From assembly GCF_020386975.1 (NCBI RefSeq), contig NZ_JABFNK010000001.1:124001-188000 (forward strand): a DNA stretch of 64,000 nt, written 5' to 3'. Shown here piece after piece: positions 54,615 to 60,934 of the stretch. Each line of letters begins with the position of its first letter. The stretch's first letter is position 1. The DNA comes from Thermococcus bergensis. GTDB lineage: Archaea > Methanobacteriota_B > Thermococci > Thermococcales > Thermococcaceae. A program made the position numbers and the translations under genes. The notes under the pieces were generated by a model that worked only from the letters and a program-made list of their open reading frames with translations, was not told the origin of the DNA and ran no database searches.

Positions 54615-54785
54615 ATGCCCTATATACCGAGTAGGCCCGTTACGGATAAATCTCTTGTTGGGATTGTTGTCTCAATTATTTTGGTGTACATCCTTCTTAG
54701 AGTTTATTCTAAATGGATGGAGAAGTTGGTGGAAAAGAAGGAACAAGAGCTCAAAGAAGAAAATAATATTGGAGAGCTTTATTGA
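54615..54785 (+). CDS. Small single-pass membrane protein
   Basis: A 56-residue frame: MPYIPSRPVTDKSLVG, a hydrophobic helix (IVVSIILVYILLRVY), then a charged helix KWMEKLVEKKEQELKEENN. TATAAAAG (54583-54590) is about 25-30 bp upstream, so the message would be nearly leaderless, starting at ATG 54615. It heads the metal-cluster region and precedes the DUF134 gene by 58 bp. Family not recognised. Confidence 0.55.
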   Translation: MPYIPSRPVTDKSLVGIVVSIILVYILLRVYSKWMEKLVEKKEQELKEENNIGELY

Positions 54786-54843
54786 TATTGTCCTGCACGA
54801 AAACTCTAAAAAGGAAAAACCTGACTTTAAGATAGGTGTTAAA

Positions 54844-55212
54844 ATGCCGCGAGGAATGGGGTGGGGAAGAGGAAGAAGGCGAAAAATGAGGTTTATAGGG
54901 TTCATACCTGAGGTTAGACATTTTTATCCTGCCAAGCCCCCTTTTGGCCCTCCACAACCTCCGATTTTTATGACTTATGAGGAATTTGAAGCGCTGAGAC
55001 TTGTGGACTACGAGGGCTTAACGCAGGAGGAAGCCGGGCAGAGGATGGGGGTTTCTAGAGGCACGGTTTGGAGGGCTTTAAGCTCTGCAAGAAAAAAGGT
55101 AGCCCAGATGCTTGTTGAGGGGAGGGAGCTAATAATCCTTGCACAGGGAAATGAAGTTCCAAAAGTGGAGTCATCTAAGGAGCCAGATATTTCCGACGAA
55201 GACTCGTTTTAA
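54844..55212 (+). CDS. DUF134/UPF0251-family HTH protein
   Basis: A 122-residue protein starting MPRGMGWGRGRRRK, then VRHFYPAKPPFGPPQPPIFM and a helix-turn-helix (YEGLTQEEAGQRMGVSRGTVWRAL) like sigma region 4. DUF134 proteins are repeatedly found with NifX-type and ferredoxin-containing MinD-type genes and are plausible regulators of such clusters. ATG 54844 is chosen because GGTG precedes it and family members start MPRGM or MPR; the longer frame from 54529 is rejected. Its end overlaps the convergent radical-SAM gene by 42 bp. Confidence 0.88.
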   Translation: MPRGMGWGRGRRRKMRFIGFIPEVRHFYPAKPPFGPPQPPIFMTYEEFEALRLVDYEGLTQEEAGQRMGVSRGTVWRALSSARKKVAQMLVEGRELIILAQGNEVPKVESSKEPDISDEDSF

Positions 55213-56265
55213 TCCTTCTTTTTTGGCCGCATTGTACACATTTTCCATTTGTTTTTTGCTGGTATTTGGAATATCGTGCATTAGATGTTGAGGAGCAAAT
55301 GCCAGAAGGATGTAGGGTATATCCGGATCCAGCTGGGCAAGATACCTCGCTATTCCACCGACCTCTTCCTCATCTATGTAATGGGGCACAACAAGAGTGC
55401 TTATAACTAGTAAGGGAGGCTCTTTTCTATTGTCCATTGAAGTTATGAGTGCTACGTTCTCTTTTATCCTTTGAAGGGCTTTTTCTCCGTTGATTCCTGT
55501 TAGAGCTTCGTAGACACTTGGAGTATAGGCTTTCCAGTCAATTTTCACTATCCCTCCGCTTTTCAAGCTTAACCTTGCCATCTCCCGCATCATGTTTGGA
55601 TTTTCGAGACCATTTGTTTCCCAGCAAATTCTCTTTGTTGTTCCAATTTTTTCAGCCCTTTTAATAACTTCTCTTGAGGTTTTTATTGCATAGGGACTGT
55701 GTGGAGTAGGGTCACCGCCAAAATAACACACACATGAGACCCTACTTCTCATTGCTATATCTGCCAGCTCTTTTGAGCCTATGAGAATTCCCTCAAAGGG
55801 ATCTATGCTCCCGTTTTTTATCATGTATTTATGTTCTATGTTCTGGCAGAAAAGACAATCTAAGTTGCATCCAGCGAAGAAGACCGCTAGGTTGTAAAAT
55901 CCTCTATGTTCTTTTTCCGGACAAACTGGCCCTGCGACACAGTTTGTTGGATGAGGATCAAGGTACCAGTGGAGGTAAGCTCTATCAAAGTTTCCAGTTA
56001 TGGGGATTAGCCTCCCTCTTTTGTTCCATATTATTCCGCAGTAACCAGAGCTTCCCTCTGGAATTTTACACTCATTTACGCAGATTGAGCATTTAATACC
56101 TTCTTTCGGGGGCTTAAGAGGCAACCCTATGAGCTTCCGCCATTTTTGATGGGATTTATGTGCTATTTTTAATGCTTCTTTGGGATTTTTTCGTAGACAG
56201 TTGACGCAGACTCCGATTGATTTACTAATCTCTTCCGATTCATATCCGCATATTTTGCATGTCAT
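55171..56265 (-). CDS. Radical SAM protein (PFL-activating-enzyme-like) with N-terminal zinc ribbon
   Basis: A 364-residue protein. The N-terminus has a cysteine-rich ribbon (CKICGY ... CVNCLRK) and a second set (CSICVNECKIPEGSSGYCG). The radical SAM cluster is CNLDCLFCQN (CX3CX2C), followed by FGGDPTPHSP and ETNGL. It is similar to COG1180/AmmeMemoRadiSam-type enzymes; the substrate is unknown. ATG 56265 has only a weak ribosome site. Divergent from the next radical-SAM gene, with an operator between them. Confidence 0.85.
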   Translation of the reverse strand: MTCKICGYESEEISKSIGVCVNCLRKNPKEALKIAHKSHQKWRKLIGLPLKPPKEGIKCSICVNECKIPEGSSGYCGIIWNKRGRLIPITGNFDRAYLHWYLDPHPTNCVAGPVCPEKEHRGFYNLAVFFAGCNLDCLFCQNIEHKYMIKNGSIDPFEGILIGSKELADIAMRSRVSCVCYFGGDPTPHSPYAIKTSREVIKRAEKIGTTKRICWETNGLENPNMMREMARLSLKSGGIVKIDWKAYTPSVYEALTGINGEKALQRIKENVALITSMDNRKEPPLLVISTLVVPHYIDEEEVGGIARYLAQLDPDIPYILLAFAPQHLMHDIPNTSKKQMENVYNAAKKEGLKRVFVGNIWLLR

Positions 56266-56320
56266 CAATATTCTCTCGGGGCTTCATCTTAATGAAAGTT
56301 TCCAAAATCTTTAAACGCCT

Positions 56321-56334
56321 TTAGGCTAACCTAA
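56321..56334. promoter_or_regulatory. DtxR-like operator between two radical-SAM genes
   Basis: Perfect palindrome TTAGGCTAACCTAA, identical to the right-hand 14 bases of the bacterial DtxR/IdeR box. It lies just downstream of a TATA (TCTTTAAACG, 56308-56317) for the rightward gene and upstream of the same AT-rich box read leftward. Confidence 0.8.
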
Positions 56335-56347
56335 CACTGGTGAGCTC

Positions 56348-59606: not shown

Positions 59607-60227
59607 ATGAGGATTGCAATACCAAGTGCAACCTCTGGAGGGCTGGAGGATACAATTGCCCCAGTATTCGCAAGAGCACCAGCTTTCACAATAGTCGACG
59701 TTGAAAACGGTGAGATAAAGAACGTGAAGGTAATTCAGAACCAAGCGGCCTACGCTGGTGGAGGAGCGGGTGCGATGGCAGTGCAGGCACTAATAAATGA
59801 GGGTGTTGACACTGTGATAGCCCCACAAATAGGACCTAATGCTATGGGAGCTCTTCAAGCAGCGGGAATAAGGTACTATATCTTTCCGGCAGGAACTCCA
59901 ATTAAAGAAGCTGTGGAGAGAGTTATCAAAGGAGAAGTCCAGCAAACAGGAGAAATAATGCCTTCATATGGCCCAATGGTTCCTGCAAATCAACCAGGAA
60001 ATTACGCTCCTACTTCAACTCCTCCTTATGCAGTCCCACCATATCCTGCTTACGGATTTGGTCCCGGTTATGGATGGGGTAGAGGTAGAGGTCGTGGCTT
60101 TGGCAGGGGATTTGGACGTGGCTGGGGAAGAGGAGGCAATGGATGGGGAGCAAGACTTGGGTACTGCCCTCGGACAGGAATGCCAAATAGAAGGAACTGG
60201 TTTGCGAGATTCTTTGGCTGGTGGTGA
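59607..60227 (+). CDS. NifX/ORP-fold protein with Pro/Tyr- and Gly/Arg-rich tail
   Basis: A 206-residue protein. Residues 1-110 are a complete NifX-like domain (MRIAIPSATSGGLEDTIAPV; FTIVDVENGEIKNVKVI; VDTVIAPQIGPNAMGALQAAGI). Residues 120-150 are Pro/Tyr-rich (APTSTPPYAVPPYPAYG), and 150-180 are a repeated GRGRG/FGRG/WGRG stretch, ending RRNWFARFFGWW. Such domains bind Mo/Fe-S type clusters. Ribosome site AGGAGGTGATG. Both tails are likely disordered and may bind nucleic acid or the membrane. Confidence 0.85.
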   Translation: MRIAIPSATSGGLEDTIAPVFARAPAFTIVDVENGEIKNVKVIQNQAAYAGGGAGAMAVQALINEGVDTVIAPQIGPNAMGALQAAGIRYYIFPAGTPIKEAVERVIKGEVQQTGEIMPSYGPMVPANQPGNYAPTSTPPYAVPPYPAYGFGPGYGWGRGRGRGFGRGFGRGWGRGGNGWGARLGYCPRTGMPNRRNWFARFFGWW

Positions 60228-60259
60228 GCTCTTTTTCCCTACTTTTTGGAGGATTGAAA

Positions 60260-60472
60260 ATGCCACGCGGGATGAGAAGAAACCATCTGAGGCATAATTT
60301 TATGGGTTATCCCTTTAGAGGGTTTTATGGTTTGATTGATGCGCTTATTATAGTTGGGGTGCTTTACTTTTTGGTGAAGCTCCTTTTGGTAGCTCTGCCG
60401 TATGCACTGGGTCTTCTGATACTTTTCGTCCTTCGGCAATTTTTGAGGGCCCATCCTTGGAGAGGTTTTTGA
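60260..60472 (+). CDS. Small membrane protein in NifX cluster (MPRGM start)
   Basis: A 70-residue protein: MPRGMRRNHLRHN, then two hydrophobic segments (IDALIIVGVLYFLVKLLL and LPYALGLLILFVLRQFL) and a short basic end. Its first five residues equal those of the DUF134 protein at 54844. ATG 60260 follows TTGGAGGATTG. It sits 32 bp after the preceding NifX-type gene. Family not recognised. Confidence 0.7.
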   Translation: MPRGMRRNHLRHNFMGYPFRGFYGLIDALIIVGVLYFLVKLLLVALPYALGLLILFVLRQFLRAHPWRGF

Positions 60473-60493
60473 GCTTATGCAAACTTTTTTAAA

Positions 60494-60507
60494 TTCGGTT
60501 TCCCTAA
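60494..60507. promoter_or_regulatory. Imperfect DtxR-like operator before third NifX-type gene
   Basis: TTCGGTTTCCCTAA, one mismatch from TTAGG-N4-CCTAA, just downstream of a TATA region (ACTTTTTTAAAT, 60483-60494). Confidence 0.6.
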
Positions 60508-60526
60508 TTTATCTGGAGGTGGTAAG

Positions 60527-60934
60527 ATGCGAATAGCAGTTGCAACAGTAGAAGGAGGTTTAGATGATTTTGTCAACCAACACTTTGGGAGAACACCTAC
60601 ATTTACTATAGTGGATGTTGAAAATGGAGAAGTAAAGAACGTTAAAGTGGTTCCTAACCCTGGTGCAAGCGCTCCTAGAGGTGCTGGAGTTCAAGCGGCT
60701 CAGTTTTGCATAGATGAAGGGGTAGATGTTGTTATAGCTGGGCAATTTGGCCCGAATTCTGCCCAAGTACTTCAAGCTTCAGGTATAAAGTTCGTCTCAG
60801 CTCCTCCCACCATGAGGGTAGAGGACGCAGTAAGGGCTTTTCTGAGAGGAGAGTTAACCCAAGCAGTGTTGGGAGCTGAAGGCGGTGGAATGGGTAGAGG
60901 CCACGGCATGGGAAGAGGGCGAGGTAATTGGTGA
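60527..60934 (+). CDS. NifX/ORP-fold protein with short Gly/Arg/His tail
   Basis: A 135-residue NifX-like protein (MRIAVATVEGGLDDFVNQHFGRTPTFTIVDVE, in parts; VDVVIAGQFGPNSAQVLQASGIKFV). It ends in GMGRGHGMGRGRGNW, a smaller version of the 59607 gene's tail. The H-F-G-R block after the first helix is the usual cluster-binding neighbourhood in this family. Ribosome site GGAGGTGG. Confidence 0.87.
   Translation: MRIAVATVEGGLDDFVNQHFGRTPTFTIVDVENGEVKNVKVVPNPGASAPRGAGVQAAQFCIDEGVDVVIAGQFGPNSAQVLQASGIKFVSAPPTMRVEDAVRAFLRGELTQAVLGAEGGGMGRGHGMGRGRGNW

Follow-up and report, generated by a model that had tools for sequence, protein, structure and literature searches.

Iron-sulfur storage and ORP systems

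The IssA/SipA protein of Pyrococcus furiosus (PF2025) stores iron sulfide as thioferrate; its 179 residues comprise an N-terminal NifX domain (IPR003731/PF02579) of ~109 residues and a 70-residue tail with a pI of 10.7, it holds about 38 Fe and 1 Zn per monomer, and it forms particles of 20–300 nm (PMC5524996, in part). IssA has been described as a homomeric store, and the main text of that paper makes no mention of an operon, ATPase, promoter or neighbour. The ORP system of Desulfovibrio vulgaris (Orp3, Orp4, Orp5, Orp8 and Orp9/MrpORP) includes two related two-[4Fe-4S] proteins and a NifX-fold protein, and the Desulfovibrio orp genes have sigma-54 promoters (PMC6345978, in part). MrpORP and the Mrp-Nbp35 carriers are MinD-family P-loop ATPases that handle Fe-S, and the NifB/NifX/NifH toolkit combines a radical-SAM protein, a NifX carrier and a NifH-fold ATPase.

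Here we describe a locus within a 64,000-nucleotide stretch of Thermococcus bergensis DNA (the window) whose gene set looks coordinated for Fe-S storage and supply and not like a factory for a novel metal cofactor. We estimate the probability that it is a storage-and-supply system centred on IssA at roughly two in three. The unknown metal cofactor proposed in the first-pass annotation is not supported: NifX2 matches IssA and the locus has iron boxes in common with feoAB, both of which point to iron-sulfur.

Gene content and conservation

Pfam and profile searches, together with the ORF sequences, recovered every gene named in the first-pass annotation (Table 1).

Table 1. Features of the locus and of the feoAB region, in window coordinates
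Feature	Position	Strand	Comment
feoAB and small HTH ORF	19168..21725	-	ferrous-iron uptake genes; same-regulon reference 33 kb off
feoA; feoB; HTH ORF	21483-21725; 19438-21486; 19168-19434	-	Pfam
Two iron boxes 5' of feoA	21725-21738; 21774-21787	.	exact; one mismatch (motif scan)
Small single-TM ORF	54615..54785	+	56 aa; from sequence; doubtful relevance
DUF134 (COG1342-type HTH) protein	54844..55212	+	122 aa; RG-rich N-terminus; PF02001 87.8 bits, cut-off 27
rSAM1, radical-SAM protein	55171..56268	-	365 aa; Cys-rich; PF04055
Iron box TTAGGCTAACCTAA	56321..56334	.	exact; between rSAM1 and rSAM2
rSAM2, radical-SAM protein	56348..57301	+	start PVPSRRLGKSLGI; PF04055; Cys are the three SAM-cluster Cys only
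ATPaseB	57293..58189	-	MinD/NifH-fold P-loop ATPase; inserted 2x[4Fe-4S] domain; conserved switch-II Cys
ATPaseA	58186..59046	-	paralog/partner of ATPaseB; inserted 2x[4Fe-4S] domain; alternative upstream start at 59061 possible
Iron box TTAGGGAAACCTAA	59064..59077	.	exact; divergent ATPaseA/NifX1 promoter
Degenerate palindrome TGTGCATATGCTAT	59092..59105	.	3 mismatches; divergent ATPaseA/NifX1 promoter
NifX1, divergent NifX-fold protein	59110..59511	+	133 aa; PF02579 40.6 bits
Iron box TTAGGCTAACCGAA	59542..59555	.	1 mismatch; issA promoter; overlaps into BRE/TATA
Palindrome TGTGCATATGCACA	59571..59584	.	exact; downstream of issA TATA box
NifX2 (predicted IssA/SipA ortholog)	59607..60227	+	206 aa; PF02579 80.5 bits, residues 14-108
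TM1, small membrane protein	60260..60472	+	70 aa; two TM stretches by eye; basic MPRG.. N-terminus
Degenerate palindrome TGAGCTTATGCAAA	60470..60483	.	3 mismatches; 5' of NifX3
Iron box TTCGGTTTCCCTAA	60494..60507	.	1 mismatch; NifX3 promoter
NifX3, short-tailed IssA paralog	60527..60934	+	135 aa; PF02579 86.8 bits

NifX1 is the weakest of the three PF02579 matches (cut-off 26.3), and none of the three proteins reaches the cut-off of the nifX or nifB equivalog profiles. By its sequence, NifX2 matches an ortholog of P. furiosus IssA/SipA: a NifX domain is followed by a Pro-rich part and a cationic/aromatic/Gly tail, the layout is the same at 206 versus 179 residues and the sole Cys (Cys 187) lies inside the tail, whose 97 residues (pI 10.9) include 13 Pro, 11 K/R, 19 aromatic residues and 23 Gly. 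In a small FastTree of 56 sequences, to which P. furiosus IssA itself does not belong, NifX2 clustered with two Pyrococcus IssA orthologs, apart from ORP, with a support of 0.993. The D. gigas ORP fell outside the IssA/NifX3 group of this small tree and is not the closest relative of the three NifX proteins. Judging from gene numbering, NifX1 is possibly the SipB ortholog. The small membrane protein TM1 is conserved and its gene lies directly 3' of the long-tailed issA in 29 of 30 cases; the two are probably co-transcribed. Relative to IssA as described in PMC5524996, the ATPase pair, TM1 and the operators are additions of the present locus.

ATPaseA and ATPaseB are both of the MinD/Mrp type and each carries a two-cluster ferredoxin insert with 8 Cys, which sets them apart from MrpORP and the Mrp-Nbp35 carriers. 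The ATPaseB insert matches Fer4_21 at 41.9 bits; that of ATPaseA scores 33.7 bits, under the cut-off of 35, and matches Fer4 at 39.4 bits (cut-off 21.1). In the fold comparison, run for ATPaseB only, the nearest structure was P. furiosus MinD (VIA Z 26.2, 2.9 A, 225 residues), with Z scores of up to 24.6 for NifH folds; the locus has the same three kinds of protein as the nitrogenase toolkit, the NifH-like fold being that of ATPaseB. Both proteins score far below the MrpORP equivalog cut-off of 450 (59.6 for ATPaseB, 46.1 for ATPaseA), and gene calls and profile searches found no MrpORP (Orp9) fusion gene at the locus.

A strong ATPaseA ortholog (E 5.6e-131 or better) is present in 77 of the 81 Thermococcaceae genomes, which argues that the locus is not a product of chance; three of the four remaining genomes (G014, G044 and G079) are 61–88% complete and the fourth (G072) is 99% complete. 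The two ATPase genes sit side by side in the window, as they do at each of the 40 related Thermococcaceae loci that we selected; these related loci are not independent samples. The ORP-like content claimed in the first-pass annotation was borne out in 80 other, mostly bacterial, loci: the A-B gene order occurs in 73 and a NifX gene accompanies the pair in 76, deltaproteobacterial loci among them, while Mrp-like genes are present in 33 and one bacterium has the order DUF134-NifX-ATPase-ATPase-MrpORP. Orp3 and Orp4, likened here by description, are presumably MinD-type ATPases like ATPaseA and ATPaseB. Compared with the D. vulgaris ORP system, the locus adds the long-tailed IssA, TM1 and rSAM1.

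The two radical-SAM proteins match PF04055 at 51.5 and 70.4 bits. The first-pass annotation did not count such enzymes among the described parts of ORP operons. This does not hold for the rSAM2 family, found beside the ATPase pair in 19 of the 80 other loci against about 0.3 expected by chance (our own arithmetic, from the density of the family in 32 of the genomes that contain the 80 loci); rSAM1 occurs in only two. Members of the rSAM1 family have 16–18 Cys (14 members), whereas 19 of the 23 rSAM2 proteins have three and the other four have four. NifB needs additional Cys for further clusters, for which three Cys leave no room, and rSAM2 does not have the extra Cys of a NifB-type enzyme.

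Two promoter elements

A DtxR/IdeR-type iron box (TTAGGnnnnCCTAA) is found in the promoters of ATPaseA, rSAM2, NifX1, NifX2 and NifX3. Counted at no more than one mismatch and within 160 bp in the 41 loci, it precedes ATPaseA in 40/41 cases, rSAM2 in 20/22, NifX1 in 17/17, NifX3 in 27/28 and NifX2 in 22/31 (19/28 without L066, L069 and L070, where the match is that of NifX3 again), compared with 0/29 for DUF134, 0/23 for TM1, 3/15 for rSAM1 and 31/661 for other ORFs. Exact boxes also stand 5' of FeoA, FTR1 permease and Mrp/Nbp35 (NUBPL-type) genes identified by Pfam, the Mrp/Nbp35 gene lying outside the locus in the T. bergensis genome. The DtxR-family gene itself follows a box with at most one mismatch at every one of 17 Thermococcaceae loci, which represent 16 genomes. 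The small HTH ORF beside feoAB scores 19.8 bits against the FeoC model, below the cut-off of 21. A TTAGG-type palindrome at promoters that include those of iron uptake and of a DtxR-family gene fits a DtxR/IdeR-type regulon (we take TTAGG-type boxes to be IdeR-like), and the iron box is most likely read by a DtxR-family repressor. What counts against this is the published regulon prediction for the P. furiosus DtxR-family protein (PF0851), which, in the part available, names riboflavin and RNA-polymerase genes and leaves issA unmentioned.

The second element is the palindrome TGTGCATATGCACA, which in the NifX and ATPase promoters lies on the opposite side of the TATA box from the iron box. With up to three mismatches it occurs at ATPaseA in 41/41 cases, NifX1 in 15/17, NifX3 in 25/28 and NifX2 in 30/31 (27/28 after dropping the same three loci), and at 15 of 661 other ORFs. 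Among ten additional issA loci, of which nine belong to Pyrococcus, all have the palindrome and nine have the iron box. Since relaxed palindrome-like sites precede 8 of 14 non-thermococcal DUF134 genes from other phyla, DUF134 is a candidate for its reader, and most likely the actual one. Relaxed sites elsewhere are rare (ATP 1/158, Mrp 0/33, rSAM2 0/20, DUF59 0/4); against our reading, bacterial NifX genes show no enrichment (2/123), nor do Thermococcaceae DUF134 genes have the palindrome upstream, the best match having at least three mismatches in 28 of 28 examined. A literature search that left out most subscription papers returned little on DUF134/COG1342/UPF0251 and, in the motif and regulon papers that it covered, did not meet this regulon.

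The arrangement differs among promoters. The issA and NifX1 promoters have the iron box 5' of the BRE/TATA and the palindrome downstream; ATPaseA and NifX3 have the reverse order; rSAM2 has a downstream iron box with no palindrome partner. From its position, the iron box would be activator-like at issA/NifX1 and repressor-like at ATPaseA/NifX3. These are archaeal TATA promoters, unlike the sigma-54 promoters of the Desulfovibrio orp genes.

The first-pass annotation took a failure of these genes to stay together in relatives as its refutation, and in part this is what is seen. They lie apart in Pyrococcus, where the ATPase pair is separated from the NifX genes and issA in 7 of 8 loci, which counts against our model, but the iron box and palindrome persist there although the genes are dispersed.

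Published S0 responses agree with this reading of the locus. In Palaeococcus, SipA rose by log2 6.23, the neighbouring Fe-Mo protein by 4.29 and an adjacent 'CobQ' Fe-S pair by 3.74 and 3.41, with feoAB also up; from annotation and order, PAP_06425/06430 appear to be the ATPase pair. In T. onnurineus, sulfur raised SipA and SipB. The issA gene described here has both elements; induction has been reported for its relatives.

A model for Fe-S storage and supply, and its alternatives

By orthology, IssA (NifX2) would store iron and sulfur the way P. furiosus IssA has been shown to, in the form of thioferrate carried by the NifX domain and the cationic tail. TM1 may tether the particles, or the flow of Fe and S, to the membrane, and NifX1 and NifX3 could serve as small Fe-S carriers. 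ATPaseA and ATPaseB would spend ATP and low-potential electrons in loading or reductively mobilising the stored Fe-S, and may pass it from the store to acceptors through their built-in 2x[4Fe-4S] relays. Expression would be set by the iron box, through a DtxR-family repressor, and the TGTGCATATGCACA palindrome, through DUF134. The opposite promoter arrangements suggest expression under opposite iron supply: the store would be made when iron and sulfide are plentiful, and scarcity of iron would switch on the genes for the ATPases, the carriers and rSAM2.

Against this model, no other protein was attached to immunoprecipitated P. furiosus IssA, and ferredoxin was rebuilt from it by DTT without an ATPase (PMC5524996, in part). 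An unlikely alternative is that two modules have only regulation and neighbourhood in common, IssA and TM1 serving storage while the ATPase pair, NifX1/3 and rSAM2 carry out ordinary Fe-S maturation and carriage with no thioferrate. The separated ATPase pairs of Pyrococcus, which have rSAM2 alongside in 6 of 7 cases, stand apart from issA and TM1, which favours it, and MrpORP hands Fe-S clusters to an Orp3-Orp4-Orp8 complex in vitro (PMC6345978, in part). In other phyla the ATPases and NifX occur nearly without long-tailed IssA. Only two long Gly/Arg-tailed NifX proteins turned up among the 80 other loci, which makes it unlikely that the pair generally serves thioferrate storage and counts against our model. 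The division is opposed by the two-element promoters common to both sets, whose spacing is kept in Pyrococcus, and by their reported joint induction by S0.

The storage-and-supply model could be extended if DUF134 sensed how full the Fe-S store is, with thioferrate binding to its RG-rich N-terminus and a full store altering occupancy of the TGTGCATATGCACA operators. We give this little credence. The idea stems from RG-rich patches that resemble the cationic IssA tail (thermococcal DUF134 26/29, NifX2/3 50/52, TM1 7/19, other ORFs 6/821) and from the palindrome-like sites before non-thermococcal DUF134 genes. It is weakened by the absence, by eye, of the patch from most of 15 non-thermococcal DUF134 N-termini (present in L145, weak in L143 and L154), and RG patches can bind DNA or RNA too. 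If it were true, a full store would withdraw DUF134 from its operators, or bring it to them, and mineral level would feed back on the genes for IssA, for the NifX carriers and for both ATPases.

A true ORP-type system with a Mo-Cu-S or other heterometal cluster on the NifX proteins, along the lines of the first-pass annotation, is improbable. The ATPase-NifX core is identical in kind, Orp8 is homologous to Mo-Cu sulfide cluster proteins (PMC6345978, in part) and DUF364 'heavy-metal chelation' genes (Pfam, one member) occur in 12 of 41 Thermococcaceae loci and 7 of 80 others; however, iron boxes are held in common with feoAB, metal analysis of IssA gave Fe and S (PMC5524996, in part) and the D. 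gigas ORP branches elsewhere in our small tree.

McdA/ParA ATPases position other cellular bodies. That the ATPase pair and TM1 place or partition big thioferrate granules at the membrane in a MinD/ParA-like manner is highly improbable, despite the MinD-like fold of ATPaseB, the position of TM1 right after issA, the polar location of MrpORP and the MinD-like C-terminal amphipathic helices and putative cell-division role of Orp3/Orp4 (PMC6345978, in part), because fold likeness shows no function, the 8-Cys insert and switch-II Cys suggest redox work and tailed IssA was not seen at many of the loci that have the pair.

On the storage-and-supply reading, the ORP-type ATPase pair, the NifX carriers and a radical-SAM gene that recurs at such loci come under the two elements of issA, which joins the IssA and ORP stories and provides testable partners for thioferrate loading and release. 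DUF134, a widespread domain, gains a likely operator, and part of the Thermococcaceae iron regulon is outlined.

Flanking genes

The first-pass annotation began the locus at 54615 because the 56-aa membrane ORF starts there; this ORF has no match in a Pfam search and one weak match (E 0.036) across the 40 related loci. At the other end of the locus, NifX3 has a divergently oriented SufC gene beside it at 5 of the 41 loci (identified by Pfam in two of these five), which speaks for the storage-and-supply model.

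A probable IssA store alongside an ORP-type gene set

Storage and supply of iron-sulfur is the reading that best fits the locus, with an IssA store under common control with an ORP-type set of ATPases and NifX proteins. The first-pass annotation had read it as a complete ORP-like system for an unknown metal cofactor; every gene type it listed was found in the window, which is Thermococcaceae DNA from a 2.08 Mb genome, and in the place it had assigned. NifX2 (206 aa) consists of a PF02579 domain, a Pro-rich stretch and a cationic, aromatic and Gly-containing tail (pI 10.9) that holds the only Cys of the protein. 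According to the accessible part of the IssA paper (PMC5524996), Pyrococcus furiosus IssA (SipA), which stores thioferrate, has 179 residues with the domain at positions 1–109 and a 70-residue tail (pI 10.7) with 11 Pro, 7 cationic, 14 aromatic and 15 Gly residues and the only Cys, and high conservation of the tail sequence is confined to Thermococcales. In a small tree, the Pyrococcus orthologs clustered with NifX2 (support 0.993) and NifX3 was adjacent (0.875), while Desulfovibrio gigas ORP, TM1290 and MTH1175 fell outside this group. The predicted storage of Fe-S by NifX2 rests on this orthology. NifX1 is very divergent in sequence, and the source genome encodes a fourth NifX protein outside the locus, with a Cys/His C-terminal end and, by eye, kinship to PH0822-type proteins; its gene is preceded by an exact TGTGCATATGCACA palindrome and followed by a radical-SAM gene. 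Two non-thermococcal NifX proteins (loci L171 and L162) carry long IssA-like Gly/Arg-rich tails.

Coordinates of the features discussed
Feature	Sequence	Position
Window	C1	124001–188000
Small membrane ORF	window	54615–54785
RG-rich patch of DUF134	window	54844–54886
Repeated ORF	window	near 22500
Palindrome TGTGCATATGCACA, exact	C5	137779–137792
Fourth NifX gene (L003)	C5	137874–138143
MobA-like NTP transferase gene	Pyrococcus locus L044	7248–7829

Gene neighbourhood in Thermococcaceae

The window was compared with 40 loci of about 20 kb each that we chose from 77 Thermococcaceae genomes. ATPaseA and ATPaseB adjoin in all 41 stretches; matches to the remaining genes were found in 29 (DUF134), 28 (NifX3), 28 (NifX2, being 31 less three that are NifX3 again), 23 (TM1), 22 (rSAM2), 17 (NifX1) and 15 (rSAM1), often with other genes interposed. 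One genus among the kin genomes (g2) was identified as Pyrococcus because an 88-residue stretch of its genome G021 is identical to PH0822, the PH prefix denoting P. horikoshii. The expectation that the genes of the locus stay together holds for the ATPase pair and fails for issA in Pyrococcus, where in 7 of 8 loci issA and a NifX3-like paralog are located elsewhere and rSAM2 alone (6/7) remains with the pair. This separation, together with published P. furiosus IssA particles that had no partner protein and released Fe-S with DTT alone in vitro (accessible part of PMC5524996), argues against direct coupling of IssA to the ATPases. Under the storage and supply reading, we infer roles in these processes for the ATPases, the radical-SAM proteins and the membrane proteins.

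TM1 lies directly 3' of 29 of 30 distinct issA genes, Pyrococcus among them, counting issA genes with the RLG[YF]CP tail signature. Its identification with SipB was set aside because Thermococcus onnurineus SipB, in the part of the source available, is annotated as 'ATPase C-terminus' and stands three gene numbers from SipA; by gene order NifX1 may be the better fit. No conservation of the small membrane ORF was found in related loci. NifX3 is divergent from SufC in five of the 41 loci (L050, L066, L068, L069 and L070; Pfam run on two), with SufBD behind SufC in the four where the stretch reaches. Genome G072 (99% complete, about 50 contigs) lacks a good match to ATPaseA or to tailed IssA, which could be a loss or an assembly gap. 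A MobA-like NTP transferase gene adjoins rSAM2 in Pyrococcus locus L044, and iron-box matches occur at ORFs resembling it in L044, L046 and L047.

Shared operators and published induction

Two elements, the iron box TTAGGnnnnCCTAA, which we take to be of DtxR/IdeR-like type, and the palindrome TGTGCATATGCACA, flank TATA boxes at near-fixed positions in 14 loci judged by eye. Both are concentrated at particular genes of the locus, and several of the 25 background ORFs listed appear to be neighbours on the same promoters.

Genes with an operator upstream in the 41 Thermococcaceae loci and, in the last row, at ten additional issA loci (iron box, at most one mismatch within 160 bp; palindrome, at most three mismatches)
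Gene	Iron box	Palindrome
ATPaseA	40/41	41/41
NifX1	17/17, mostly via the divergent promoter common with ATPaseA	15/17
NifX2	22/31 (19/28 without three NifX3 repeats)	30/31 (27/28)
NifX3	27/28	25/28
rSAM2	20/22	none
rSAM1	3/15, all boxes already counted for rSAM2	none
DUF134	0/29	none
TM1	0/23	none
Background ORFs (100 aa or longer)	31/661	15/661
Ten further issA loci (nine Pyrococcus)	9/10	10/10

Raw genome counts of the iron box carry no weight, since a reversed-pattern control gave more matches than the real pattern (156 versus 57), and at up to two mismatches the window showed no enrichment (32 versus 39 expected); what speaks for the box is where it sits, how well it is conserved and its exact copies. 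As a link to S0, SurR was rejected: its motif, GTTnnnAACnnnnnGTT, shows no excess across the window (14 occurrences versus 16.1 expected at up to one mismatch), and the locus has no exact copy, just a single one-mismatch match within the coding region of each of ATPaseA and issA.

Co-regulation of issA with the ATPase/NifX set rests on these conserved operators and on published induction, as far as the available parts of the sources go. On S0, Palaeococcus pacificus raised SipA (log2 6.23), the next Fe-Mo protein (4.29) and the adjacent genes annotated 'CobQ iron-sulfur' (3.74 and 3.41), each of which is listed among the most strongly up-regulated genes, with feoAB also up; SipA and SipB levels rose significantly with sulfur in T. 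onnurineus; and up-regulation of P. furiosus sipA by sulfide requires sufficient iron (PMC5524996).

Of 12 exact iron boxes in the genome, two lie within the IssA locus and one precedes feoA, in the window 33 kb away. Others precede the FTR1 permease and Mrp/NUBPL-type ATPase genes, and genes for an ABC ATPase (L110), a ZnuA-type protein (L111) and a DOMON protein (L115), whose products are predicted to be of metal or electron-transfer types and may have a role in iron; no evident iron link was found at sites L109, L113, L114 and L117. A DtxR-family gene has an iron box (at most one mismatch) upstream in 17/17 Thermococcaceae loci from 16 genomes. The predicted regulon of the P. furiosus DtxR-family protein PF0851 comprises 32 genes with emphasis on riboflavin and RNA polymerase, and the accessible part of that source does not mention issA. 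An ORF (MVVVMNFQQEILIIKSEIYPIISKHYPK...) that looks by eye like a transposase but has no Pfam match is repeated in the genome (L106, L118 and L124), once within the window.

Related loci in other phyla

Plasmid-borne bacterial loci contain one-to-one relatives of ATPaseA and ATPaseB, in the orders HTH, NifX, ATPase, ATPase, DUF59 and DUF134-NifX-ATPase-ATPase-MrpORP. Among the best 80 of 585 confirmed outside loci, a set biased toward kin of the Chloroflexota query (4/80 archaeal by title) and counted above set bit cut-offs, the A-B order occurs in 73, NifX in 76, an Mrp-like gene in 33 and rSAM2 in 19, with DUF134 (15), DUF59 (9), DUF364 (7) and rSAM1 (2) rarer. rSAM1 was therefore rejected as a core component, and a NifB-like role of rSAM2 was discarded because of its Cys count. 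In 32 genomes chosen from the 80, among them 17 of the 19 whose locus holds rSAM2, each genome has 0–4 rSAM2 homologs. Strong matches (E below 1e-20) total 34 over roughly 99 Mb; by our arithmetic this density of about 0.34 per Mb predicts about 0.3 loci in the 0.95 Mb examined. DUF364 'heavy-metal chelation' genes (Pfam run on one) also lie near the ATPase pair in 12 of the 41 Thermococcaceae loci, and so occur in both archaea and bacteria.

The ATPaseB model is confident (pLDDT 94.1) and, among the matches listed in two fold searches, closest to MinD (Z 26.2, 2.9 Å, 225 aligned), with NifH folds also close (up to Z 24.6). Where the switch-II motif was found (it was missed in 21/81 A and 9/75 B proteins), a Cys at Asp+7 is present outside Thermococcaceae in 66/66 B and 59/60 A proteins. 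Thermococcal ATPaseB retains this Cys (40 found), whereas thermococcal ATPaseA has Asn (41 motifs seen). We take the Cys to lie near the position of the NifH cluster ligand Cys132.

A candidate reader of the palindrome

DUF134 occurs in 76 of 81 genomes, with a single match in 75 of those 76. No palindrome was found upstream of the Thermococcaceae DUF134 genes. Outside that family, 8 of 14 DUF134 genes have TGnnCATATGnnCA (at most one mismatch) in the 150 bp before them, a fifteenth being left out for its short upstream region, versus about 1% at random positions of the same loci and 0–2% at other gene classes; two of the eight sites are at most 5 bp from the domain start, so that they may overlap the start codon. 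This placement points to DUF134, without proof, as the candidate reader. An RG-rich patch is common to DUF134 of the window and its relatives, the tails of IssA and NifX3 and a part of the TM1 proteins, and is rare in neighbouring ORFs.
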